From a virus: a stretch of 60,802 nt of DNA. A program made the translations under genes and the position numbers. The stretch covers positions 1 through 60,802 of the IMG/VR virus record IMGVR_UViG_3300025127_000031; one strand, written 5' to 3'. The notes under the pieces were generated by a model. That model was not told the origin of the DNA and ran no database searches. It saw nothing but the letters and a program-made list of their open reading frames with translations. Shown here piece after piece: positions 5,335 to 19,854 of the stretch. Every line of letters starts with the position of its first letter. Position 1 is the first letter of the stretch.

Positions 5335-6591
5335 ATGTCTAACAAGCCGAAGATTTTGTGGTCGGGTGATATTGTTGCCCGTACAGGTTTTGCACGTGTT
5401 ACTGAAAACCTAATCACTAGGCTAAAAGATCGATATGAAATTGTTGTTTTAGGCAATAACTGGTGGGGAGATCCCAATGAATTTCAAGCAGATTTTAAAA
5501 TGTATCCTTCATCCAATCGGTTCCAGACAGAACCTTTTGGTGTTCAGCGTATTCGTGAAACAGTAGAAAAAGAACAACCTAATTTGATCTTTGTTAACAA
5601 TGATGCCTGGATTGTTAATCAACTGTATAGCCAAATCAAAGATTATCACGATGCCGGTAAGTTTAAATTTGTAGCTTACATGCCAATGGACAGCTACGGC
5701 TGGACCGGTTGTTTGACTGATCATGCTGGTAGTTGGGATGGAATCGTTGTCTATACAGAATTTGGTGCTCGTGAATTCCATGCTGCTGGTATTGCTAAGC
5801 CAATCACTGTTATCCCTCATGGTGTAACAGATGGTCAATTCTTCCCTCTTGATAAAATCGAGTGTCGTAAAAAATTAAATCTGGCAGAGGATGGTTTTAT
5901 TGTTTTTAATGGCAACCGTAATCAAGCACGGAAGCGTATTGATATCACGATTGATGCTTTTGCTGAATTTGCTATTGGTCGTCCTGATACCAAGCTTTAC
6001 CTTCATATGGGCAAGAAGGACCAGGGTTGGGATGTGATGCATTTGTTTGGTCGTGAGATGCGTAAGCGTGGCCTCGATCCCAACGGTCGAATCATCATGA
6101 CTACCGATACTCCCCAGCCTCCTTCAGTTGACATTGGCTTGCTCAATATCATCTATAACGCCTGTGATGTGGGCGTTAACACCTGTAAAGGAGAAGGTCA
6201 TGGTCTAGTCAACCATGAGCATGCAGCTTGTGGTGTCGCCCAGGTGGTGCCCAACCACACGTCTTGTAAGGAGATCTTCGAGGGGGCTGCACCCTTGATC
6301 GATAATTGTTTTATCGATGTGGACATGAACTACAACCGGGACATGCCAGTGCCCAGTGCTGAGCATCTAACTGAGATTTTAGTGGAGCTGTACGAAGACA
6401 GGACATTGCTTAAGCAAGTTGGAGCTGACTGTTTCCAGCGGGCAACAAATTCCAAATATCAGTGGGACACCATTGCAGAGCAATTCAACGAGGTATTTGA
6501 AGAGACGTTGAAAGACCCAATTGAGATTGATAAGCCTGTAGTACGCAAGCCCAAGCGACGTAAAAAGAAGAAGAAAGCTGTAGCAGCCTGA
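5335..6591 (+). CDS. Glycosyltransferase, GT-B fold (GT4-like)
   Basis: A 418-residue protein. GARTGFARVTENL-type N-terminus (here ARTGFARVTENLITRL) with a Gly-rich donor loop, FNGNRNQARKRIDITIDAF at the start of the second Rossmann domain, and YNACDVGVNTCKGEGHGLV, the E-G-x-G-L region that binds the nucleotide in GT4 enzymes. The family transfers sugars from nucleotide donors. The C-terminus ends in a run of about a dozen Lys/Arg residues, which could bind nucleic acid or membrane. It follows the primase by 31 bases and ends in a terminator, so the two may be co-transcribed. Acceptor unknown. Confidence 0.85.
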   Translation: MSNKPKILWSGDIVARTGFARVTENLITRLKDRYEIVVLGNNWWGDPNEFQADFKMYPSSNRFQTEPFGVQRIRETVEKEQPNLIFVNNDAWIVNQLYSQIKDYHDAGKFKFVAYMPMDSYGWTGCLTDHAGSWDGIVVYTEFGAREFHAAGIAKPITVIPHGVTDGQFFPLDKIECRKKLNLAEDGFIVFNGNRNQARKRIDITIDAFAEFAIGRPDTKLYLHMGKKDQGWDVMHLFGREMRKRGLDPNGRIIMTTDTPQPPSVDIGLLNIIYNACDVGVNTCKGEGHGLVNHEHAACGVAQVVPNHTSCKEIFEGAAPLIDNCFIDVDMNYNRDMPVPSAEHLTEILVELYEDRTLLKQVGADCFQRATNSKYQWDTIAEQFNEVFEETLKDPIEIDKPVVRKPKRRKKKKKAVAA

Positions 6592-6626: not shown

Positions 6627-6943
6627 AGGGCGGAGTTTGGTTGTCTCATTTCAATCTCAGCCCTGCTGTAATCCATTGTGTTGGAAGGGGTTCCAGCTAT
6701 TAGGGCGGATCTCGACCCCCTTAAACCTCTTAGTTCTAGTTCAACGACCCTTTTGGTACACCTTAATGGTTGACAGTTTTGGCTGCCCAAAAGGTACACC
6801 AAAAAGGTACACCAAAAAGGTCGTTGTGACTAGAATAAATAAAAATAAGGAGGTAAGAATGATGAGACTCACGTGAGATCCACTGCCCTGCAGTTGATTT
6901 GCATCGAAAACAAAGTCCGCCCTGAGACACCAAAGTCCGCCCT
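6627..6943. repeat. Gene-free region with nested inverted and direct repeats
   Basis: No gene is seen here apart from a possible five-codon leader peptide. AGGGCGGA occurs forward at 6627 and 6702 and in reverse orientation at 6911-6923 and 6931-6943, where CAAAGTCCGCCCT is repeated exactly. Inside lies an imperfect inverted repeat of about 30 bases (6734-6762 and 6806-6835), each arm carrying TTCTAGT, CAACGACC and a GGTACACC box; GGTACACC is present three times (6755, 6793, 6806). The symmetry suggests a protein-binding or recombination site, or an RNA fold. Confidence 0.7.
6846..6876 (+). promoter_or_regulatory. Strong ribosome site with five-codon leader peptide
   Basis: AAGGAGGT (6847-6854) is followed by ATG at 6859 and a five-residue frame (MMRLT) ending at TGA 6874-6876. 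That stop overlaps a GTG (6873) in frame with the HNH-like gene. This is among the best Shine-Dalgarno matches in the window, yet it serves a mini-frame, which suggests leader-peptide control or re-initiation at GTG 6873. Confidence 0.5.
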
Positions 6944-6947
6944 CACC

Positions 6948-7646
6948 ATGGCAAACACTCTTACAAACCGTAAAAAAAGAGCAAAAAACATTTTAGATAA
7001 TTTAAATTTTAGGTATCTTCCAAACGAAGAGGATGAAACTTTAAATGCTTTAGGCTATTACAGAGGGTTTTTTTGTCCTTTTGGCCATGAAATACGTGAT
7101 AAAAAAGAACACTGGTGCTATCACTGTGTACGACGTATTCAATCAAATATCTGTGGTTTAGACATTAATTATTTGCATAATGCTTATCAACAAGATGCAA
7201 AAGATATTTTAGACTTTGTTGAAATTAAAGAGCCTCATGAGTGTTGGCCAATTCAATTAACAGCTGATGAGTATAGAAAATATGATACACCTAAAAGAAT
7301 TTCATTTCCTTCTTATCGAACTGGTCAGATGGATCGTCGTACTGATCGTGTTACTTTGCATAAAGCAATCTATACATTTACTTGGGGTGATGTAGGCAGC
7401 ATGCGTATTAGTAGACGTTGTCGAAACAAATGGTGTGGTAATCCATTGCATATGTGCTCTAGCTGGAATCGAGCCCATGTTCCAAAAGATTTTCATTACC
7501 TTGATCTTGAGTTAAACCCAAAGAAATTATTGTTAATGGCAAAACGTCATCGTCATAATTTGCCTATTGAAGAATTAATTTCTATGTCTTATCGACCAAC
7601 GATTGAAAATCCTTGTGATATTTCCCAGAAGTACAATGGAGAATAA
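6948..7646 (+). CDS. HNH-like nuclease or zinc-binding DNA-binding protein
   Basis: A 232-residue protein from ATG 6948; an in-frame GTG at 6873 would add 25 residues. Two metal-binding-like segments are visible: C43, H47, C57 and C60 (CPFGHEI...WCYHC), and CRNKWCGNPLHMCSSWNR near 158-174, which resembles the 'H.C....CvNP.HL..gT..eN' end of phage HNH homing nucleases. The usual first His of that motif is replaced by Arg, so catalysis is uncertain. The gene stands behind a repeat-rich leader, as expected for a mobile homing gene, but no interrupted gene is seen. Two adjacent Lys/Arg-rich stretches support DNA binding. Confidence 0.6.
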   Translation: MANTLTNRKKRAKNILDNLNFRYLPNEEDETLNALGYYRGFFCPFGHEIRDKKEHWCYHCVRRIQSNICGLDINYLHNAYQQDAKDILDFVEIKEPHECWPIQLTADEYRKYDTPKRISFPSYRTGQMDRRTDRVTLHKAIYTFTWGDVGSMRISRRCRNKWCGNPLHMCSSWNRAHVPKDFHYLDLELNPKKLLLMAKRHRHNLPIEELISMSYRPTIENPCDISQKYNGE

Positions 7647-7661: not shown

Positions 7662-8627
7662 ATGACAGCGCAAAGAGAACGTTCACAACACAATCCTTTA
7701 AATCTGGGAACTTTTAATACTACGTCTTTACGTATGTTAAAAGGTACTTTGGGGCCAAAAAGTGAAATCATATCTGGTGGTTATGGGCGTGAAACATACA
7801 ACCACTGGTTTCAAGTTACGCTTGCTTCAGAAGCATGGATTATTTTATTTAAAGCTTCTTCTGAATTAGCAACAGGAAATAATCAATTATCAACCAGGAG
7901 ATCTCCTTTAACAACACGATTCTCTATTAGTGTTCTTGATCAAAACAAAAATCCAGTTCAAGGTCGTAATATTTTTCAAGCTGATTCGGCATTAGTACAA
8001 AACAATCGCGATAGTTTTCATACTACATTTGATAACAGCTATACCGGTCAGGTTATGGCTGCTCAAAGTGACTTATACAATACATTTAGTTCAACTAATG
8101 CAGATCGTGGGGATGATCGTTATTTTCCTTTACGAGCTGGAAATTATTTAATTTGTATTTCTGCTGATAGAAATGAAGAGTTTCAGTATGGTGTTGGTTT
8201 AGTTGTAGAGTTTCAAACTCCAAATGATGAATTATTTTTCTTATGTGAAGATACTTCTGATATTACTTATTTGATTACAGAAAATGATCTTAATGAAGCT
8301 GTTGTAGAAATTGTTCCTAATACTGTTACCAGTGGCATTACTCTATCCTCGTTGAATGGTTTTACAGAAAATCTTTGTACTATTGTTGATCCTAATGGTA
8401 TTGTTCAAGTTAACTATCAAAATTCTGATGGTAACCCACTATCTTGGTTAATTGGTCCAGATCCAGGGGACATTACAGCTGGTCGTGTTTTATTAGATGC
8501 TACTGAGAATTGGATTGATACAACACACGAACATTCATTAACAGAGTGGCGTGCAGCATGGGAGCGTGATCATTCTATGGATGATAAATTTCCTAATGTT
8601 TTCGCAACATATACTAACGTTGCCTAG
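7662..8627 (+). CDS. Uncharacterised, probable tail or virion protein
   Basis: A 321-residue protein not recognised. It has few Lys, many Asn, Thr and Ser, and alternating beta-strand patterns (HWFQVTLASEAWIILFKAS, YFPLRAGNYLICIS), as in phage fibre or adaptor proteins. The C-terminus has a conserved-looking LTEWRAAWERDHSMDDKFP segment. It starts 15 bases after the HNH-like gene and is followed by the CP12-like and another unknown beta-rich gene, making a plus-strand run of five genes. Virion role is inferred from composition. Confidence 0.6.
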   Translation: MTAQRERSQHNPLNLGTFNTTSLRMLKGTLGPKSEIISGGYGRETYNHWFQVTLASEAWIILFKASSELATGNNQLSTRRSPLTTRFSISVLDQNKNPVQGRNIFQADSALVQNNRDSFHTTFDNSYTGQVMAAQSDLYNTFSSTNADRGDDRYFPLRAGNYLICISADRNEEFQYGVGLVVEFQTPNDELFFLCEDTSDITYLITENDLNEAVVEIVPNTVTSGITLSSLNGFTENLCTIVDPNGIVQVNYQNSDGNPLSWLIGPDPGDITAGRVLLDATENWIDTTHEHSLTEWRAAWERDHSMDDKFPNVFATYTNVA

Positions 8628-8656: not shown

Positions 8657-8824
8657 ATGACTACTGATTCCTTAGGCAGATTAGACCAAACTAAAGATTT
8701 AATCTCTGATTATTGGACAGGTAAAACAGAACACAAAGAAGAGATAATTAAACCTACTGAATTTTTTAAAACATATTGCGCAGTTGAACCTTGGATGCCA
8801 GAATGCAAAGAATATGATGTCTAA
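8657..8824 (+). CDS. CP12-like small protein (C-terminal GAPDH-binding motif)
   Basis: A 55-residue protein. Its last 23 residues contain PTEFFKTYCAVEPWMPECKEYD. CP12, the redox-controlled inhibitor that ties GAPDH and phosphoribulokinase together in cyanobacteria and plastids, ends in 'YC(x3)P(x4)EC(x2)Y(D/E)'; here the spacing between the two Cys (eight residues), the central Pro, the Glu before the second Cys and the final Tyr-Asp all agree. Cyanophage CP12 proteins likewise keep this half and lose the N-terminal Cys pair, also absent here. If active it would curb the Calvin cycle during infection. The frame is short, so the call rests on this motif. Confidence 0.65.
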   Translation: MTTDSLGRLDQTKDLISDYWTGKTEHKEEIIKPTEFFKTYCAVEPWMPECKEYDV

Positions 8825-8827
8825 TTT

Positions 8828-9562
8828 GTGTCTACTTTAATCACCAATCTTCCTCCGGTTAAGGTATGGGTACGTAAAGAATATCTTCGTGATCTTCGTG
8901 ACGGTCATGGTGAATATACTCTGGGTTATTGGACCAGTGTAAAATCTATTCCTGGGCGGGTATTTTATTTTGAAACGTTCCTCCCAGAGTACGGTGCTTT
9001 ATTTGACAAGTTACCAATTTCTGCTTTCTTGCTTTGGGACTCAGACTTTCCTGATGCCCCTGAAACACCAGCACCAGATTTACCGCTAGAAGAATTACAA
9101 TTTTGGAATTGTTTTAGTTATGACATTACCACCCTGGAAAAAAATCTTACGTTCACAATGGGATGGGAAATCAGAACCAAAACCCACGGTACTATCCCTG
9201 GCGAATATTTGTTTACTATTGACAGTTTTAATGGCGACCGCTCTAGGACTGATATCTCTTTCGCAGAGACGCCGGATGAACACAAATCCTTCAATATTAT
9301 TGGGTTGCCGAATGGTCAAATTGCAGCGTATCCCAACAACAGATGCCGTCTTGCTGACCCTTCTTTGTCCCCCGAGACGTTAAAACAACCTGACTTTCTT
9401 GTTTCAAGTCGATATTTTCAAGTTGAAAGTCCCAATGCAAAATGGGGACGCCTTGGTGAATCAGAAGAATATTTCTGGGAAACAAAAACTGAGCAAAACA
9501 AAAAACCAAATGAATATATGCTTTTTATTCCAGCGGATGATCAAGAAGAATTTGACCGGTAG
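8828..9562 (+). CDS. Uncharacterised beta-rich phage protein
   Basis: A 244-residue protein starting with GTG three bases after the CP12-like stop. It is rich in aromatic residues and acidic surface segments (LPEYGALFDKLPISAFLLWD, DIQ-like Asp/Glu tail) and has no Cys motif or membrane segment. No catalytic signature is visible. The compact spacing suggests co-translation with the CP12-like gene. It could be a conserved cyanophage structural or host-takeover protein; I cannot choose. Confidence 0.6.
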   Translation: MSTLITNLPPVKVWVRKEYLRDLRDGHGEYTLGYWTSVKSIPGRVFYFETFLPEYGALFDKLPISAFLLWDSDFPDAPETPAPDLPLEELQFWNCFSYDITTLEKNLTFTMGWEIRTKTHGTIPGEYLFTIDSFNGDRSRTDISFAETPDEHKSFNIIGLPNGQIAAYPNNRCRLADPSLSPETLKQPDFLVSSRYFQVESPNAKWGRLGESEEYFWETKTEQNKKPNEYMLFIPADDQEEFDR

Positions 9563-10993: not shown

Positions 10994-12823
10994 TCAACTA
11001 TCTTCTAAAGCTGCAATACGGGTTTCCAAACTTTCAATCTTTGCATTAGCTTCTTGTAATGCTTTAAGCAACATAAAAGGAATAACAGAACGTTTAAGTT
11101 CTTTGGTTTCTCCCTCTGTGTGTATTAAACCAGGGAACACCTCTTCTACTTCTTGTGCAATAAGGCCAAGCTCTTTGGGTTCAGAATCTTCTTGCGTTTT
11201 CCAGTGATACTTGACAACTCTTAAATTTGCTAAATCATCTAAATAACCATCTCTTGTGGTTTCAACATTTTTCTTAAGCCTTATGTCAGATGGTGTGCCT
11301 ACTGTGCCATTGGTAAAGATTGAATAAATTGCTGTGCCATCATTGTAACTAGTGGATGAATGTACACCATATAAAAGTCGATGCGTTGTTCCGGAGGTGC
11401 TTCCGTTGTGAAGCTGAATTGTACTTGTACCGGAATCACTGAAAATACGGGTTTCTCCACTTCCAGCTATCTTCATCCGTTGCGATGGAGCACGGCTCAC
11501 AGTACTGCTGTTTGTGAAGAAGACTAAATCACACACCTGATTGGTATTAAAATTATTTTTACCACCAATACCTGCATAAATTCCCGAACTAGTACCATAT
11601 CCAAATAACAACTCCTCTGCATTATTTACTTTTTTAATAAATGTAGTTGTACCTGCGCTGTCAATTATCATCCGCTCCGTCGGAGAAGGCTGCCCATCAT
11701 TAGTGGTCGCAAATACCAGTTTTCCTGGGTAATCGTCCGTGCCGTTTGCACCATCGGCAGCACCTACAATTCGTGCATATTCACCTGCATCTGAATCATT
11801 ATCATTAAAAGTGATGATACCTAGATTGTCGTCGTGTGTTGTATTTGTTGTACTCTTATCGTTGCCAAGCGATAGATAACAAGCGTTGGTATTTAGTGTA
11901 TTTCCACGAAGTGCAAATTTAGCGTATTGAGCGTCTGTACCTGCTGGCGAGGAGGCAGTACCAATCAACAGCCTGCCCGTGCTGTCAACATACATTGCTG
12001 CAACACCATCACCACCATTAAAGCGTAGTAAAGTACTGCTGTCTGGATCATCGGGACCCAAAGACATTTCATGAGTGCTGTTGTTATATCGAATAGCAGC
12101 TCCAACACTTTGAGTTGGGCACCCAAACATTAGTGCTGTAGTGTTATTACCATCTGCGGTGAGAAGACTAATACCGCAATCGCCAGCATTCTCTACGACT
12201 AAATCGTCAGCACCAGAATTTGGAGTGACTGTGCCTGCAGTACCTGTGTGAACGTGCAAAGTACCATCTGGATTCGTCGTTTTAATCCCGACCTGGCCCT
12301 GGAAAGTGGCAGATCCATCTGCGTTGATATTTGCCGTATATGATGCAGTTGAACCATTGTACACGTATATTCGCTGATCAGTAGCTGATGTTGAACTACT
12401 TACATACGACGCAACTTTACCAGCATTAGAAATAAGCGCACCAGTTTCGTAATTATTGCCAGGGGGATTATTTACATAAATATTTCCGGAGTTGTCGATA
12501 TCTACTGCACGAATAGATCCGTTTGCTCCTGAATAAATTGTATGAGCTGTTGCACCAAGAACTAATTTATTACTACCACCAGTAACAAGATTAAGAGTAT
12601 TAGCACCGCTACTAAATAAACCAGTGTCAGTATCGCCTTCAAACCGAAGAGATGGCTGAGATGCACTACCTAGTTCAAGAGTTAAGTTACCAACAGGAGA
12701 GTCAGTAGTAAGAAGGGTACCGCCAACTGCAGGAAGGATAAAGGTCTGATCGCCTGCTACTGCTGCTGCTTGCAGTTCAGCGTAACCAGATGTTGATCCA
12801 CGTAGCCTTAAGGTACCCGACAT
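10994..12823 (-). CDS. Tail fibre with peptidase S74 intramolecular chaperone
   Basis: A 609-residue protein. The N-terminal half repeats beta-rich modules, including SGSASQPSLRFEGD-like text (ASQPSLRFEGDTDTGLFSS) also seen in four neighbouring ORFs. The last 98 residues start at SDIRLKKNVE and include ELGLIAQEVEEVFP and a final coiled coil (ANAKIESLETRIAALE), which is the S74 self-cleaving chaperone that trimerises fibres and is then released at the Ser of SD.RLK. It should be the distal receptor-binding fibre. It is the last gene of the fibre array. Confidence 0.88.
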   Translation of the reverse strand: MSGTLRLRGSTSGYAELQAAAVAGDQTFILPAVGGTLLTTDSPVGNLTLELGSASQPSLRFEGDTDTGLFSSGANTLNLVTGGSNKLVLGATAHTIYSGANGSIRAVDIDNSGNIYVNNPPGNNYETGALISNAGKVASYVSSSTSATDQRIYVYNGSTASYTANINADGSATFQGQVGIKTTNPDGTLHVHTGTAGTVTPNSGADDLVVENAGDCGISLLTADGNNTTALMFGCPTQSVGAAIRYNNSTHEMSLGPDDPDSSTLLRFNGGDGVAAMYVDSTGRLLIGTASSPAGTDAQYAKFALRGNTLNTNACYLSLGNDKSTTNTTHDDNLGIITFNDNDSDAGEYARIVGAADGANGTDDYPGKLVFATTNDGQPSPTERMIIDSAGTTTFIKKVNNAEELLFGYGTSSGIYAGIGGKNNFNTNQVCDLVFFTNSSTVSRAPSQRMKIAGSGETRIFSDSGTSTIQLHNGSTSGTTHRLLYGVHSSTSYNDGTAIYSIFTNGTVGTPSDIRLKKNVETTRDGYLDDLANLRVVKYHWKTQEDSEPKELGLIAQEVEEVFPGLIHTEGETKELKRSVIPFMLLKALQEANAKIESLETRIAALEDS

Positions 12824-12849
12824 TTTACAACGTACTTTTTATTTAACTA

Positions 12850-13179
12850 TTATACGGCTTCCGTATCTGTCGTTTCTTCTGTATCTGTAACTACTTCATC
12901 TGTAGTTGCAGTACCCTCTTCTGTGATTGGTTCAACCGGAGTTGGATCAATACTCTCCTTGTAATCTTCGATTAACTCAGGAGTCCAGAGTGCAGCTGCA
13001 ACATCTTGTACTTCTTGCGGTGCTTCAGAAACATCATCACCAGGAGAATACACAGTGCGGTGATAGCCACGGGCAATTTCTACACCGTCTTTAAGAACGA
13101 TGTCAGCACGACGGCACTGGATGATAGACCAGGGGGGAATAATTTCCAGCTTGTATTCAATCTTTTCTTCGTAAGCCAT
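12850..13179 (-). CDS. Small fibre-associated protein with acidic tail
   Basis: A 109-residue protein, not named in any family I can be sure of. The N-terminal two thirds (IPPWSIIQCRRADIVLKDG, IARGYHRTVYSPGDD) look like a compact beta domain ending in a helix (TPELIEDYKESI); the rest is a Thr/Glu low-complexity tail. GGAGGA lies ahead of the ATG. Its position between two fibre genes suggests a fibre assembly chaperone or connector. Confidence 0.65.
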   Translation of the reverse strand: MAYEEKIEYKLEIIPPWSIIQCRRADIVLKDGVEIARGYHRTVYSPGDDVSEAPQEVQDVAAALWTPELIEDYKESIDPTPVEPITEEGTATTDEVVTDTEETTDTEAV

Positions 13180-13213
13180 TAGGAACGTCCTCCAGACGAA
13201 ACAGATTTAGGAA

Positions 13214-13239
13214 TAGTTTTAAGCCATTACGGGCTTAAT
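13214..13239 (-). terminator. Hairpin after fibre gene, copy 1
   Basis: TTAAGCC (13219-13225) pairs with GGCTTAA (13232-13238) directly after the stop of the 521-residue fibre gene. A nearly identical 26-base element lies after the next fibre gene at 15191. It lacks a long T tract on the minus strand and may act as an attenuator or RNA 3' end protector. Confidence 0.55.
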
Positions 13240-13241
13240 TT

Positions 13242-14807
13242 TTATGCATCAGTTGGATAAGTAAACGTGCCAATCCAATACATTCCGGTTAAGTTTACAT
13301 TATCTCCGCCTCCAAAATAAAAATTATTGCCTCCTTGGTGGTAAAGATAAAAGTTGGCTGTATTAGGAGTTCCATAGTTTGTTGTTATTTCGTTTGTTGT
13401 ATTATGAAAACTACTTGTGCCTCCTCCTCTTGTTAGCTCACTTGCACCTATAGTTCCATAAGATAAATTAGACATATTAAAAGGTAATCCCCCTATTCGT
13501 GCATGTGCAGTAGTACTAGTAGCACCTGTAGCAAACCTAATATAAATTTCAGCATAAACTTTATTGCCTATTTTTGTGTATCTTCCGGCTTGTATAGAAT
13601 AAGGTACTGCTCCGCCTGACCCATCGTCAACTCCTGCTGCAACAATTGGAGTAAAAGTACCTTCTTCGTAGTCATCTAATGCGTTAGCTGTTGCAGTATC
13701 ACCGTTAAAAGTAATACCGCCTGATGAAAGAATACGTACTTTTTCAGTAATAGCTCCAGCAGCATTGCCCGTTGCAAATTGTAAATAGCCACCTGCTTGG
13801 CCACTGGTTGCATTTTCTTTTCGACCTGCAATAGAAGCTACGCCATAGTTAGCTTGAGTTCCAATATGCGAAGTAAATACAAGAGGCAAACCTGTATCAG
13901 CTGCCAAAGCTGATGTGGACTGAAACATTACACCATCACGATTGCCTACAGCTTCACTTGCTGCTGCGACGTGTAAGATTTCTTCTGGACTGCTTGTGCC
14001 TATACCTGTCCTTCCATCAGCAAGAATAACAAATTTTTCAATTTTATCCCCTGATGAGCCACCCACATCAGATTGTACTTTAAAAGGCTTGGCAGTAGCT
14101 GTTTGTGTCTCTTGATATAAATCAATAGCGCCATCATTGATAGTGATACCACTGTTTTGCGCTAGCTGAACATATGAGCCGGAGGCATTTCCAAAAACAG
14201 CTTTTCCATCGGCATACATCGAAACTCTTTCTACGTTGCTTGAATTTCGATCTAAAATTCTAAAAGCCTCTTCACCATAAGCAGGAGAATGTGTTGTTCT
14301 TTTAATTGTTAATCTGCCAGTTGACTCTATGTCAAGATTTTGTGAAGCAAAAAATGCTGCTCCAGTACTACCAGTAAGTCCAATCCTGTTACTAGTAGTT
14401 AAATTTCCTCCAATGTATAAATCACCATCTGTTTGTAATCCTGTATGCCAAACATTGGCACTTGTATCTTTGGCAGCCCAAACATAGTCAGTTCCGCCTA
14501 AATTTGTTCCGGTCTGGAACCAAGAGTTAGTTGCTGTGCTCTGAGCTGATAAAGAAGTTGTTGTAATTGCTCCAGTAAAAGTTGTATTTCCAGTGCTTGC
14601 AATAGTTAAAATTGCAGAGCCACCAACACCTAAAGCAATTGAGTTTGCACCTGGAGAATATAAACCGGTATCTAAATCATCTTGGAATGACAAAGCTGGA
14701 GCACTAGCTGTACCATCTGCTAATGCTGCCGTTCGATCGTTTGCCAGCACAATATTAGGATCACTAGCATCCGTATGCTGTAAATTTGTTAGCCTAAGAG
14801 TGCTCAT
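13242..14807 (-). CDS. Tail fibre protein with shared beta module
   Basis: A 521-residue beta-rich protein. Near the N-terminus it carries ASAPALSFQDDLDTGLYSPG and LTIASTGNTTF, the module common to this gene cluster. Around residue 370 it has RILSSGGITFNGDTATANA and DDYEEGTFTPI, a motif marking the start of many phage receptor-binding tips. The C-terminal 150 residues, rich in Gly, Tyr and Asn, would form the variable tip. No S74 chaperone is present. It is probably one of several fibre subunits or a chain connected end to end. Confidence 0.75.
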   Translation of the reverse strand: MSTLRLTNLQHTDASDPNIVLANDRTAALADGTASAPALSFQDDLDTGLYSPGANSIALGVGGSAILTIASTGNTTFTGAITTTSLSAQSTATNSWFQTGTNLGGTDYVWAAKDTSANVWHTGLQTDGDLYIGGNLTTSNRIGLTGSTGAAFFASQNLDIESTGRLTIKRTTHSPAYGEEAFRILDRNSSNVERVSMYADGKAVFGNASGSYVQLAQNSGITINDGAIDLYQETQTATAKPFKVQSDVGGSSGDKIEKFVILADGRTGIGTSSPEEILHVAAASEAVGNRDGVMFQSTSALAADTGLPLVFTSHIGTQANYGVASIAGRKENATSGQAGGYLQFATGNAAGAITEKVRILSSGGITFNGDTATANALDDYEEGTFTPIVAAGVDDGSGGAVPYSIQAGRYTKIGNKVYAEIYIRFATGATSTTAHARIGGLPFNMSNLSYGTIGASELTRGGGTSSFHNTTNEITTNYGTPNTANFYLYHQGGNNFYFGGGDNVNLTGMYWIGTFTYPTDA

Positions 14808-14831
14808 TTCTTTGTCACATACCAGTATTGT

Positions 14832-15170
14832 TTATTCTAGCGTTACCACACTAGTTTCCCAGGGTACGCCAGATTCGTGTGTGGGCTGTTGTTGTTCGTT
14901 TAAATTCTCAGTTATTTGTGATTCATAGTCAAGTACTTTTTCTGGACCAACTTGATCTTTTACCCAACCAATACAAGTTTCTTCTCGTAAATCTTCATAG
15001 GGAATAAACCCAGGGCTAAGTGGGTTAGCTGTGAAATTACAAAAGCTTTGAATCGTTGCTACGTAATCTGGTTCACGTTCAGCAGAAAGCTCCCAATAAA
15101 TACGTTCTACAACACCCTCGCGAATTTCGCGATCCATGGTGAGAACTTTCCAGTTATAGTTATCAGACAT
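14832..15170 (-). CDS. Small fibre-associated protein, NYNWK family-like
   Basis: A 112-residue protein beginning MSDNYNWKVLTMDREI, a start I associate with small proteins near tail fibres of cyanophages, followed by a beta domain and GFIPYEDLREETCIGWVKD, a helix-forming end. The tail (NEQQQPTHESGVPWE) is polar. It sits between two fibre genes like the 109-residue protein at 12850, so the array alternates fibre and small accessory genes. Role unproven; a folding helper is a reasonable guess. Confidence 0.65.
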   Translation of the reverse strand: MSDNYNWKVLTMDREIREGVVERIYWELSAEREPDYVATIQSFCNFTANPLSPGFIPYEDLREETCIGWVKDQVGPEKVLDYESQITENLNEQQQPTHESGVPWETSVVTLE

Positions 15171-15190
15171 TGCTATTAAGCTTTAGGTAT

Positions 15191-15216
15191 TAGTTTTAAG
15201 CCATTGCGGGCTTAAT
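15191..15216 (-). terminator. Hairpin after fibre gene, copy 2
   Basis: The element TAGTTTTAAGCCATTGCGGG and its last bases match the one at 13214-13239 at all but one position, again placed just after a fibre gene stop (15231). TTAAGCC pairs with GGCTTAA. The duplicate likely moved together with the fibre gene unit. Confidence 0.55.
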
Positions 15217-15230
15217 AAATATGTTTTAAA

Positions 15231-16604
15231 TTATGCGGTCATGTAAACAATACTTCCTCTAAAGAAATCAGCCCCTGTGCTGGCAGAGCCTGCAATCGGT
15301 CGTGAGGTTTCAAAAAACAAAACGCTGCTATTACTATTTACGTAATTTAAAACAAGTTTATTTGTTCCAAATATACAATTTGTGGCTTCTACACCTGTAT
15401 TTGAATTGTAATCACCTGGCTGAAACGGAAGTCCACCTACTGCTGAATAATCAGTTGAGTCGTCCAGACTGGTATAATTAAACTGGAAATTAACAGTTAC
15501 TATTTTCCCAACTTTTGTATAATACCCTTCGGCGTTTGTAATACCATTAAAGTTATTATTGCCCACAGGAGTCCAGTTTCCCTCTTCGTAATCATCTAAT
15601 GCGTTAGCTGTTGCAGTATCACCGTTAAAAGTAATACCGCCTGTTGAAAGAATACGTATTGTTTCACTGCCATTCGATTCAAATATAGTTAGTCCTCCAC
15701 TACCACTCATAAACAATAGATTTTGACTATCTGCTCTTATATGAACACTGTCATTAGTACCAGCAGTTCCGTGTGAACCTATTGTGATACGTGCATCAGC
15801 AGCAGCAGTACCAATTTCAGCATCGCTGTCAAACGTAGCTGCTCCACTCATGTTAATGGTGGCTTTAGTGATATTTGAATTGACTACTGTGAAGCCATCA
15901 CTGTCATCAACTTGAACATAAGTTCCAGATCCAGGTGTTGAGATTGTGCGAAGGTATCCAGTAAAAGTGGCATTGCCATTTGAACCGTTGAGGTTAATTC
16001 TTTCTGTATTGTTTGAATCGCCAACTTTTAAACCTGCGTTATAAATAGTAACTGTATCTTGGCTGGAATCCATGTTAAAAATTAACTTGGAAGCAGAACC
16101 ACTTGAAGCAGGATCAGTTGTAATCCTGACTGAATTACTATTATCACCTACATCTGCAATTTTTATTGTTCCGCCAGCAAAAGTGGCAGATCCATCGTGA
16201 AAAATCCTTGCCTGATACCCAGCTGGTGAGTCAACTTTATATACACCAACAGCGGTATGTGTTGAATCTCCAGTGCCATTAATATATAAACCGTAACTGT
16301 TATTATTCCAAATCTTTGCACTACTTGCTGTTGTTGAACTATAGTCACCAAATGTCAAAGATCCCGCGCTAGTTTCTAAATTAGTAAATGTAGTTGTTCC
16401 ATCACTTGCAATAGTTAATCTTGCAGAGCCGCCAACAGATAGTCCTAGTTGGTTAGCGCCTGGTCTAAATAATCCTGTATCACTATCTCCATCAAAAACT
16501 AATGACGGTGAGGCTGCAGTGCCCGTATTAGCAAGCGTAGTAACTGGCGCACCTAAAACAGTGAGACCATTTAAAGTTCCGTTGCCTTGCAGAGTTAAAG
16601 TCAT
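15231..16604 (-). CDS. Tail fibre protein with shared beta module
   Basis: A 457-residue paralogue of the 521-residue fibre. The N-terminus has ASPSLVFDGDSDTGLFRPG and GGSARLTIASDGTTTF; near residue 330 it has RILSTGGITFNGDTATANA and DDYEEGNWTPV. The DNA coding this second block (about 15,590-15,660) is nearly identical to 13,670-13,740 in the neighbour, whereas the tips beyond it differ. That pattern fits duplication followed by tip exchange. Probable receptor-binding or shaft subunit. Confidence 0.75.
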   Translation of the reverse strand: MTLTLQGNGTLNGLTVLGAPVTTLANTGTAASPSLVFDGDSDTGLFRPGANQLGLSVGGSARLTIASDGTTTFTNLETSAGSLTFGDYSSTTASSAKIWNNNSYGLYINGTGDSTHTAVGVYKVDSPAGYQARIFHDGSATFAGGTIKIADVGDNSNSVRITTDPASSGSASKLIFNMDSSQDTVTIYNAGLKVGDSNNTERINLNGSNGNATFTGYLRTISTPGSGTYVQVDDSDGFTVVNSNITKATINMSGAATFDSDAEIGTAAADARITIGSHGTAGTNDSVHIRADSQNLLFMSGSGGLTIFESNGSETIRILSTGGITFNGDTATANALDDYEEGNWTPVGNNNFNGITNAEGYYTKVGKIVTVNFQFNYTSLDDSTDYSAVGGLPFQPGDYNSNTGVEATNCIFGTNKLVLNYVNSNSSVLFFETSRPIAGSASTGADFFRGSIVYMTA

Positions 16605-16615
16605 TGTTTTTCAGA

Positions 16616-17374
16616 TTAAACGATGGACCAATTTTCACCAGTGCCGATGGTGACAGTCACCCCAGCATTTAAATAAACCGGGCCACAGCTTGTGGCATTT
16701 TCATTGTTTGGTAAGGTGTAATTAGTAGTAACAGTTTGTTCATTCAATACAAATACACGATCACCACCTGAACCCGTAGCACCACCACCAAGGATGGCCC
16801 AGGTTCCGTCGTAACCCTCAAACTGAGCAAGGGTTGTGTTGTACCGGATCATACCGGTAGAAGAAGTAGAGGGTCGAGCAGCTGTTGTGCCAGAGGGAAT
16901 CTTTAGTGCCCCACTGCTGAACATGTGGGTGTCACCATTGCCAGAAATACGCCACCACTCAGCACCATCCGCAGCAACCGAAATTGTATTAGGAGCTACT
17001 GTAAAGATGCCTGTATTTTCATCATCAATGAAAGTAATGGAAGGTGCAGCTGCACTACCACTTTCAAAGTAAATTCTGTCAACACCAGACAGTGTGCCGG
17101 TGACAGTTAAATCACCAACGATACCTGTGGTAAATCGACCAATAGCACCTGAAATTGTGCCACTAGTTGTAGTAATATTACCCGTTATGGTATTGTAATT
17201 TCCACTATTGGTGATATCACCTTTGACATCTAAATCCCCGTTGATGATTACATCACCACTAAAGGTAGGGTTACGCAGTAAACCTGAAACAGGTACGGTA
17301 ACATTTGCCTCGTTCGGAGAGACTCCCGTAGTAAATGTTATAAAATCAACGCGAACCTCGCCAAACTGTGGCAT
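16616..17374 (-). CDS. Short tail fibre-like protein
   Basis: A 252-residue protein. It opens with GEVRVDFITFTTGVSPNEAN, continues through Thr/Gly-rich strands (TITGNITTTSGTISGA) and carries the cluster's module as AAAPSITFIDDENTGIFTV followed by WWRISGNGDTHMF. The end (NYTLPNNENATSCGPVYLNA) has the look of a short beta-propped tip with a GTGENWSI finish. It lies 41 bases beyond the large 812-residue fibre gene and may form its distal extension. Confidence 0.7.
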   Translation of the reverse strand: MPQFGEVRVDFITFTTGVSPNEANVTVPVSGLLRNPTFSGDVIINGDLDVKGDITNSGNYNTITGNITTTSGTISGAIGRFTTGIVGDLTVTGTLSGVDRIYFESGSAAAPSITFIDDENTGIFTVAPNTISVAADGAEWWRISGNGDTHMFSSGALKIPSGTTAARPSTSSTGMIRYNTTLAQFEGYDGTWAILGGGATGSGGDRVFVLNEQTVTTNYTLPNNENATSCGPVYLNAGVTVTIGTGENWSIV

Positions 17375-17415
17375 GATTAATCAGTCTCGGCTACTACTTT
17401 TAAATACATTCTAAC

Positions 17416-19854
17416 TCAGTTACCCCAAATTGTTAGGACAGCACCGTAGGTACCAGAAGAGATCGTAGCTTTACGAGAAGCGCCAGCTGTAATATCAATA
17501 ACATCTCCTGCACTACTATATAAACCTGTATTGGCATCATCAATAAATGCAATGCCAGGGGTTGCTTGATTACCTGAAGCAAAGAAGGCTTGGTCTCTAG
17601 AAGTTAATCCACTTTGCAGATAAACTTCACCGCTGACATTAAGATCACCACTAACAGTCAGGTTATCTCCTACGATGAAAACATCATCGATGTAAAGATC
17701 ATTAAATTGACCAGTTGTAAAGGTTGCTGTTTCACCGGTAACTGTTGTACCTGAAATTGTACCTGTTACAGTCAGATTTGTTCCAATCAGAATACCACTG
17801 ACAAAATTACTAGTACCAGTGACTGTAATACCTTCACGGAAAACACTGGCTCCACTAACAACAATTCCACTATCAAAGACAGAATTACCACTAACTTCTA
17901 AATCACCGCTAACAGTAAGATTGTCACCAATAATAAAATCATCATCAACAAATAAGTCTTGGAACGTACCTGTTGTAAATAAAGCTCTTGTACCTGTTAC
18001 TGTTTGCCCAGAAATGGTTGCACCTGACAAGGTGTTTGCAAGAACAGTTAAACCAGTAACAGTTCCATCAAAAGCACCACTTGCTGCAGTTATTTCTTGA
18101 ACAGCATCAATAAATTGACCTGAGATGCGATAACCAGTGATTGTGTTGCTAACAAATAAATCACCGGTAATTGTGATTTCACCACCACTAATAACAATTC
18201 CACTAATTGTGCTGGTCCATGTTGGTGCTTCACCTGCTCCTTGTGATACTAAGACTTGTCCGTGAGCACCGTAGTTTTCACCACCAAGACCTAAAGCTCC
18301 ATATCGACTAATACGTAATCGTTCAGTACCACTTGTTGAGAACCCTAAATATTTATCTAATGCAGGATTGCCATCAATAACACCACTAGTAACAAAGATG
18401 CCTGTATCATCTTCTCCTTCAAAAGTAATCGAAGGGTTGGCAGCACTTCCAGAAGCAAAAACTCCTGTTTGTGCATGGATTGTCGTACCTGAGAACGATG
18501 TTCCTGTTACGTTGGTGAAGACACCTGAAGCTCCATTAAAAGTTGTAAATTCTGCACTGGTGCCTGTAGCAGTTACGAAATGTCCACTTGTTGTAGAAAT
18601 TGTTGTGCCAGTAATGGTTCCACTGACATAAACATTGTCACCACTGATTGTGCCGCCTGTAATGGTTGGTGCAGTAATGATGGTGTCAAAATTACCAGAC
18701 TGTGCAGTAATCGTTTGACCACTAACTTCTCCAGTTATAGTAATGCCTGAAGCAAAATAACCTGAACCACTAATGAATAAATCTTCTAAAACAGTAAAAC
18801 TACCGCTAACAGTTTGGTCACCACTAAACTGAAGGTTGGCTGCAGTTAATGTTTGAGCTTGAAGGCTATTAAATAAACCAGACGCACCAGTAATGGTAGT
18901 ACCGGAAAGGTAAGTAAAGAAACCTGATGTTCCTAAAGTAACACCTAGGTTTGCTACATCACCTGTGATAGTAGTGCCTGAAAAAGATGTAGCGTGTGAA
19001 CTAAAACCTGTAAGATTTAAAAACTGTCCGTAATCACCTGTAATCGTGGTTCCTGACAGGTTTGCAACATCAATAAAAGTTCCCGTTGTTCTTTCAAAAA
19101 ATGCTGAATTACCTGTAATAGTTGTGCCAGAAATTTGAGTTGTAAATACAGCGGTTTGACCTGTCAGCGTCGTGTATTGACCAACATCTCCAGTAATCGT
19201 TGCACCAGAAATTGTTCCAGTTGCATTAATATCGTTGGCATTAATCGTTCCACTGTGAGTCAGAATGCCTGTAAAGGTTACATTATCTGCTGTAAGCGTA
19301 TCAATTTGTGCAACCTGAGCATACAAATCGTTGATATCTGCATCAACGATAATGCCTGATACAACACCAAAACTTTCACCTGTTAGGGTCGCTCCTGACA
19401 TTGTGTCAAAGAAACCGGTAACAAAGTCAATTGTTGTGCCAGTAATAATGGTAGTGAAATTACCTGAACTAATTTCTACATAGTCGGCAATAACATTATT
19501 GACTTCAATTTGAGTACCGGTAATCGTACCTGTTACAGAAAAACTACCGCTAGTTGTTAAATTTCCACCGACAATAACAGCTTGAAAATCTGAGTCACCA
19601 CTTACGGTTAAATTATTAAGGCTAGTGGTTCCACTGACACCCAGATTACCTGTAATGGTAATATTGTTGTATGTAGGATCTTCGCCAACGTTAATATAAT
19701 ATTGATCTAAGTAGTCTCTAAAACCACTAAAAGTAATCTTTTTATTTCTTAAAGCCGGATCAACTTCAAAGACGTGAACCAGGGTCAGAAGATCTGCATT
19801 AGCAATATCTACCGATTCAATCGTCGGAAATTGTGAGATCTTTCTATTGGCCAC
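17416..19854 (-). CDS. Large repetitive tail fibre or tail-spike shaft
   Basis: An 812-residue protein. The N-terminus, MANRKISQFPTIESVDIANA, looks like a virion attachment domain. The central part has at least a dozen copies of a short unit ending in SGTTITGD/GTTISG, spaced at roughly 20-25 residues, which predicts a long trimeric beta shaft. Two copies of the cluster's module appear (SAANPSITFEGEDDTGIFVT and TPGIAFIDDANTGLYSS), one in the middle and one at the end. First gene of the fibre array in transcription order, hence likely the part closest to the tail. Confidence 0.8.
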   Translation of the reverse strand: MANRKISQFPTIESVDIANADLLTLVHVFEVDPALRNKKITFSGFRDYLDQYYINVGEDPTYNNITITGNLGVSGTTSLNNLTVSGDSDFQAVIVGGNLTTSGSFSVTGTITGTQIEVNNVIADYVEISSGNFTTIITGTTIDFVTGFFDTMSGATLTGESFGVVSGIIVDADINDLYAQVAQIDTLTADNVTFTGILTHSGTINANDINATGTISGATITGDVGQYTTLTGQTAVFTTQISGTTITGNSAFFERTTGTFIDVANLSGTTITGDYGQFLNLTGFSSHATSFSGTTITGDVANLGVTLGTSGFFTYLSGTTITGASGLFNSLQAQTLTAANLQFSGDQTVSGSFTVLEDLFISGSGYFASGITITGEVSGQTITAQSGNFDTIITAPTITGGTISGDNVYVSGTITGTTISTTSGHFVTATGTSAEFTTFNGASGVFTNVTGTSFSGTTIHAQTGVFASGSAANPSITFEGEDDTGIFVTSGVIDGNPALDKYLGFSTSGTERLRISRYGALGLGGENYGAHGQVLVSQGAGEAPTWTSTISGIVISGGEITITGDLFVSNTITGYRISGQFIDAVQEITAASGAFDGTVTGLTVLANTLSGATISGQTVTGTRALFTTGTFQDLFVDDDFIIGDNLTVSGDLEVSGNSVFDSGIVVSGASVFREGITVTGTSNFVSGILIGTNLTVTGTISGTTVTGETATFTTGQFNDLYIDDVFIVGDNLTVSGDLNVSGEVYLQSGLTSRDQAFFASGNQATPGIAFIDDANTGLYSSAGDVIDITAGASRKATISSGTYGAVLTIWGN

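Follow-up and report, generated by a model that had tools for sequence, protein, structure and literature searches.

A tail-only CP12 gene in S-EIV1-like cyanophages, a candidate cap for host GAPDH

We identified a gene for a 55-residue protein, here called mini-CP12, in the window, the whole 60,802-nucleotide stretch of viral DNA analyzed. The gene is homologous to CP12 and keeps the conserved motif of its C-terminal end; it lacks the other half of that protein, is under purifying selection, and holds a conserved position among related viruses. We read mini-CP12, with a probability of roughly three in four, as the GAPDH-binding tail of CP12 on its own, which by its sequence would cap the NADPH site of host GAPDH without recruiting PRK. 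In the host, CP12 serves to switch carbon fixation off, and in a virus of blue-green algae the purpose of such a cap would probably be to stop the host spending energy on CO2 fixation. The gene and its parts are as follows:

8657..8824, plus strand: mini-CP12 gene, 55 aa, CP12 C-terminal (GAPDH-binding) module only (Pfam, orthologues, PDB profile, dN/dS)
8657..8752, plus strand: lineage-specific N-terminal part with a DLI..YW.GK motif, no Cys and no AWD_VEEL
8753..8821, plus strand: CP12 C-terminal module, residues 33-55, with helix, CxxxPxxxxC loop and K-x-Tyr-Asp-x tail (Pfam, AlphaFold2, family conservation)
8777..8779, plus strand: codon of Cys41, predicted first redox cysteine of the C-terminal pair (sequence; in 54/54 distinct copies, C-x8-C being the census filter)
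8804..8806, plus strand: codon of Cys50, predicted second redox cysteine, Ala in syntenic copy L046 (sequence)

The ORF at 8657-8824 on the plus strand begins with ATG and encodes MTTDSLGRLDQTKDLISDYWTGKTEHKEEIIKPTEFFKTYCAVEPWMPECKEYDV, with the C-terminal end KPTEFFKTYCAVEPWMPECKEYDV. This ending, CxxxPxxxxC followed by K/R and x-Tyr-acid-x, is the end of CP12 that binds GAPDH (PMC9406205). The protein's sole cysteines, Cys41 and Cys50, are spaced by eight residues, with Pro45 at the fourth position counted from Cys41 and Glu49 directly before Cys50, all as the earlier note had described. The "final Tyr-Asp" of that description is present as Tyr53-Asp54 but is not terminal: Val55 follows, leaving the acid penultimate. 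Cellular CP12 usually ends in Asp, Asn or Glu, versus Val here. Upstream of this module, the N-terminal part (8657..8752) occupies the place that the PRK-binding half takes in CP12.

The only Pfam match of the window ORF is CP12 (PF02672), at 16.1 bits and an E-value of 0.02, below the cut-off of 22.7, with positions 41-70 of the 70-position profile aligned to residues 25-54. A profile of 17 cyanobacterial CP12s scores the ORF at 16.7 bits, above the background given by 20,000 shuffles of the protein (maximum 12.1 bits) and by the next best of the 962 ORFs in the window (7.1 bits). With the window protein alone, tblastn in phages returned only the CP12 of S-SCSM2R (E 9), phmmer against the PDB returned nothing above noise, and a PHROGs search gave no usable match. 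Searches of this kind would thus give a false negative, and the identity of the protein was resolved by way of its orthologues.

Three close IMG/VR contigs carry the same gene, with 93, 80 and 78% identity to the window protein, and these closest relatives also score below the Pfam cut-off. Among named phages, Synechococcus phage S-EIV1 (KJ410740) is the nearest; both flanking genes are present in it (61% and 41% identity), and GenBank annotates nothing in the 137-bp gap between them. This gap holds a 45-aa ORF, MRFYNWLICKLFKRCEIEIIKSPTAAFKSYCEENPSSRSCRIYDV (L005:4863-5000, about 5931-6068 of KJ410740, minus strand), that matches Pfam CP12 at 28.1 bits, over the cut-off (25.7 in the genome search). 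Contig L018 has the same flanking genes and a copy with 56% identity to the window protein that scores 27.5 bits. Since Pfam recognises these orthologues, the window copy is a divergent member of a recognised set.

We took a census of the gene using the upstream 321-aa gene as anchor, keeping the best 80 of 170 matching IMG/VR stretches. A C-x8-C CP12-tail ORF of 31-55 aa follows the 321-aa gene in 65 of these best 80 of 170 contigs; the copy in L033 (4205-4363), about 270 bases further on, was added by hand. Most census copies overlap the upstream stop by four bases (ATGA), and in the window clade the gap to the upstream gene is 19-29 bases (40 in L098). The Cys pair is kept in 65 of the 67 syntenic copies with any trace of the ORF, in line with the expectation that homologues in other phages would retain it. 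The exceptions are L059, a truncated remnant, and L046 (2133-2270), where the frame is intact, the second Cys is replaced by Ala and the protein ends in FDL; the L046 copy may have lost redox control or be in early decay. Another 13 of the best 80 of 170 contigs show no trace of a CP12-tail ORF after the 321-aa gene. Mini-CP12 is not essential, given that roughly a sixth of the group's contigs lack the gene and that L046 has lost the Cys.

Profiles built from the family give a far stronger match. A family profile made without the window clade scores the window ORF at 55.0 bits, and 49 of 54 family members match Pfam CP12 at E<=1e-3, with no other family matched. Against the PDB, the family profile finds GAPDH-bound CP12 (6gfo) at 2.6e-10, a 23-residue CP12 chain (3zdf) at 6.8e-10, a CBS-CP12 protein at 8.7e-9, 3b1j at 2.5e-7, 3qv1 at 1.1e-5, and also 6kez. 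The AlphaFold2 model of the window protein, confident in the C-terminal part only (pLDDT 83-88 at residues 31-50), shows a helix (33-43) and a loop; the Foldseek match to GAPDH-bound CP12 (6gfq_C; 1.1 Å over 19 residues, 42% identity) is not significant (E 5). Overall, the same-locus orthologues over the cut-off and the PDB profile match to GAPDH-bound CP12 bear out the kinship with CP12 that the earlier note had proposed, and support it far beyond the weak score of the ORF itself. Second, weak CP12 matches within ORFs of about 450 aa in contigs L003 and L004 were regarded as noise. The tail alignment, at about 23 residues, is too short for a tree to resolve its origin.

Conservation in the family extends past the residues used to find it. 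Since the search pattern itself required the cysteines, the census hits share them by construction. It did not ask for three further features: Pro at +4 and a penultimate Asp or Glu are each present in 54/54 distinct proteins, and a Tyr preceding the first Cys in 53/54. Arg or Lys follows the second Cys in 53/54, a count that is partly selected since the script admitted only R, K or L. Each positive locus contains the full pattern a single time, and 55,704 shuffled ORF segments do not contain it at all. Purifying selection is indicated by a dN/dS of 0.13 pooled across 14 close pairs, and for the window with its closest relatives the value is 0.13-0.27; this bias toward synonymous change marks a real, translated and maintained gene.

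These results bear on whether a short ORF unrelated to CP12 might resemble it by chance, as the sub-cut-off score of the window ORF alone (16.1 bits, E 0.02) would permit. The orthologue evidence refutes this reading, and its probability is negligible: same-locus orthologues exceed the cut-off, the tail recurs in those 65 of the best 80 of 170 contigs, the PDB profile match and the dN/dS value are as given above, and the full pattern appears neither in the shuffled segments nor elsewhere in the real loci.

The N-termini of the relatives are of two types. Window-like ones (PLV..DLI..YW.GK) belong to proteins of 48-55 aa, mostly adjoining phrog_3704; the others are short, cationic and hydrophobic (MIKxLLxxFKK), in proteins of mostly 37-46 aa. 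Copies with a cationic, amphipathic or hydrophobic N-terminus include L060, L062, L070, L049 and others (for example MIKKLLALFRKK and MINSIKKLIKRLFKR), and the sequence of such an N-terminus on a CP12 tail is suggestive of membrane or nucleic-acid contact. A CP12 descendant might have drifted to another use, for instance in association with membranes or in partnership with the 321-aa protein, keeping the Cys loop as a fold and not as a GAPDH ligand. The many relatives with such N-termini, the tight and often overlapping (ATGA) coupling to the 321-aa gene, and the loss of a cysteine in L046 with its frame kept would all fit this account. We consider it rather improbable: copies that otherwise share little have retained the residues of the GAPDH-binding end, the penultimate acid among them, and phage genes are commonly coupled to unrelated neighbours, as with the cp12 of marine phages, which is likewise packed between tail genes.

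None of the 54 family members has an N-terminal Cys pair, and none has the AWD_VEEL motif, both of which characterise the half of CP12 that binds PRK (PMC10253348, PMC9623430). Mini-CP12 thus lacks the PRK-binding half, and we rule out membership among canonical full-length CP12s. Canonical CP12 (PF02672; 6gfo, 3b1j, 6kez) shares with it the C-terminal helix, the Cys loop with Pro, the K/R, the Tyr and the acidic tail, but also has the N-terminal Cys pair and AWD_VEEL. A search with the family retrieved 20 bacterial genome loci, and the 17 cyanobacterial ones with a readable ORF encode full-length CP12 or CBS-CP12.

This GAPDH-only anatomy would also make the peptide a competitor of host CP12. 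As such a decoy, mini-CP12 would block the GAPDH-CP12-PRK complex and mainly keep PRK free, with the aim of overruling the host's dark or oxidative shut-down rather than shutting the Calvin cycle down. The absence of PRK-binding features in 54/54 proteins alongside near-invariant GAPDH-binding features is consistent with this idea, as are the binding of CP12 by GAPDH before PRK joins (PMC9623430, PMC9406205) and the lack of any pentose-phosphate auxiliary metabolic genes (AMGs) found alongside mini-CP12. Competition of this kind nevertheless appears unlikely as the main role: GAPDH would still be capped, so that flux would not be restored at the GAPDH step, and cyanobacterial CP12 architecture varies (PMC3906501), so that the host's own complex may differ.

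Other proteins resemble mini-CP12 in part. The CP12s of marine T4-like cyanophages (about 71-75 aa; S-SCSM2R, S-MS29) have the C-terminal CxxxPxxxxC, are phage-borne, lack the N-terminal Cys pair and lie among non-metabolic genes (between tail protein and baseplate hub). Mini-CP12 has an unrelated N-terminus; in these CP12s the N-terminal half, of 45-50 residues, looks helical, and the S-SCSM2R protein matches positions 3-70 of the 70 in the Pfam profile, whereas mini-CP12 matches 41-70 or less. Two short phage proteins also end in a CP12 tail, the 57-aa CP12 of S-CREM2, annotated as a carbon metabolism regulator, and a 51-aa hypothetical protein of S-CAM7, so short forms are not unique to the mini-CP12 group. 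They differ in phage lineage, neighbours and N-termini, and S-CREM2 lacks the central Pro at its usual place (CTTNADAPEC). Further short CP12-tail proteins occur in other phage contexts (L020:3977-4132, L021:3830-4051, L127:1501-1656); the L020 protein is 53% identical to the S-CAM7 protein, a likeness that places tail-only CP12 in at least one further cyanophage lineage. C-terminal extensions of GapB, algal ADK3 and argininosuccinate lyase carry a CP12 tail without the PRK half as well (PMC9406205, PMC4436894), but there the tail is fused to an enzyme, whereas mini-CP12 is free-standing and would act in trans.

The mini-CP12 gene lies in a plus-strand run of a primase, a glycosyltransferase, an HNH-type gene, the 321-aa gene, mini-CP12, a phrog_3704 gene and a 48-aa gene. 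Its main neighbours are:

6873..7646, plus strand: HNH-type endonuclease-like gene, 257 aa, upstream in the same run (in nearly all syntenic contigs)
7662..8627, plus strand: conserved upstream partner gene, 321 aa, predicted beta-rich (low confidence)
8828..9562, plus strand: downstream gene, 244 aa, phrog_3704, no Pfam match

Genes for the capsid, terminase, tail fibres and endolysin lie on the minus strand, from about 10 kb. The earlier note's "run with structural genes" was therefore mistaken, since the plus-strand neighbours are the primase, glycosyltransferase and HNH genes and genes without known function; its placement "between beta-rich genes" holds in part, for the upstream 321-aa protein. 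That protein has no Pfam match and no PDB sequence match. AlphaFold2 gives only a poor model of it (pLDDT 58.7), and the Foldseek matches, all generic beta-sandwiches at about 10% identity, were not taken as an indication of function. The 321-aa gene is a marker of the S-EIV1-like group, with 170 matching IMG/VR stretches and S-EIV1 as its sole named-phage match. In other phages of the group the phrog_3704 gene is replaced by a non-homologous gene of about 140 aa. Public names for the phrog_3704 protein conflict (PurM, ferredoxin, transcriptional regulator, phosphoribosylaminoimidazole synthetase) and are probably wrong. Elsewhere in the window, a row of several long repeat-rich tail-fibre-like genes lies on the minus strand at 10994-19854; one ends in a Peptidase_S74 chaperone domain, and the one of 812 aa lacks a PHROG match.

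For a phage cp12 gene, neighbours outside metabolism are nothing unusual: in marine myophages it is located between a tail gene and a baseplate hub gene, and 362 phage records match its protein. Marine T4-like cyanophage cp12 is often found with talC, gnd, zwf or psbA (PMC10665884), in contrast to the mini-CP12 group: none of these four families matched at E<=1e-3 in 16 group records, which include the complete S-EIV1 genome and several IMG/VR records that may be fragments.

For the capping of GAPDH that we favour, we infer GAPDH binding, redox control and a metabolic effect of mini-CP12 along the following lines. In CP12, the disulfide-closed loop puts the tail into the GAPDH active site (PMC9406205, PMC4436894); the penultimate Glu of the algal protein is in contact with an Arg of GAPDH, as the corresponding GapB tail is with the Arg of the NADP site (PMC4436894). 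During infection, a Cys41-Cys50 disulfide would close the loop of mini-CP12, the helix and loop would dock on the host photosynthetic GAPDH (Gap2), and the acidic tail, with its penultimate Asp54, would enter the NADPH site in the manner of the CP12 tail. NADPH-dependent GAPDH would then be held off, so that the Calvin cycle would no longer drain NADPH and ATP, and the spared NADPH and ATP would be available for phage synthesis. Unlike with full-length CP12, PRK would be neither recruited nor inhibited. Most of the phenotype in Synechocystis depends on the C-terminal Cys pair, the N-terminal pair being largely dispensable (PMC9623430), and phage cp12 is highly expressed in infection in the light (PMC5082946). 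Counting against the capping of GAPDH are the sub-threshold score of the window copy, its Val end, the contigs that lack the gene, the cysteine lost in L046, and the pentose-phosphate partners not found. A more specific version, which we hold to be doubtful, is that a cyanophage lineage reduced CP12 to a free-standing GAPDH plug of 37-55 residues that would uncouple GAPDH from PRK control, with the cationic amphipathic N-terminus of many relatives perhaps placing the plug at membranes.

Phage CP12 is already known, as are short phage CP12-tail proteins (annotated in S-CREM2, hypothetical in S-CAM7). What appears to be new is a syntenically anchored, tail-only CP12 in most sampled S-EIV1-like members, a form overlooked because of its small size. 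The literature searched, which did not extend to the genome paper of S-EIV1 or to Thompson et al. 2011, contains no description of a tail-only CP12 in this lineage; an Antarctic virome paper reports viral CP12 contigs and does not name the S-EIV1-like lineage (PMC11421388).

The title of a 2015 paper by Chenard et al. describes the S-EIV1-like lineage as widespread. Discussion of how cyanophages control the Calvin cycle usually centres on the 70-75-residue CP12s of marine T4-like phages, which often accompany pentose-phosphate and photosynthesis genes. The S-EIV1-like lineage, in most of the members sampled, has a tail-only CP12 without the carbon and light companion genes sought. If our reading is correct, the incidence of phage CP12 would be undercounted, because ORFs of 37-55 aa fall under gene-calling and profile thresholds, and the lineage would make it possible to test cleanly whether a GAPDH cap that leaves PRK aside is what a phage needs from CP12.
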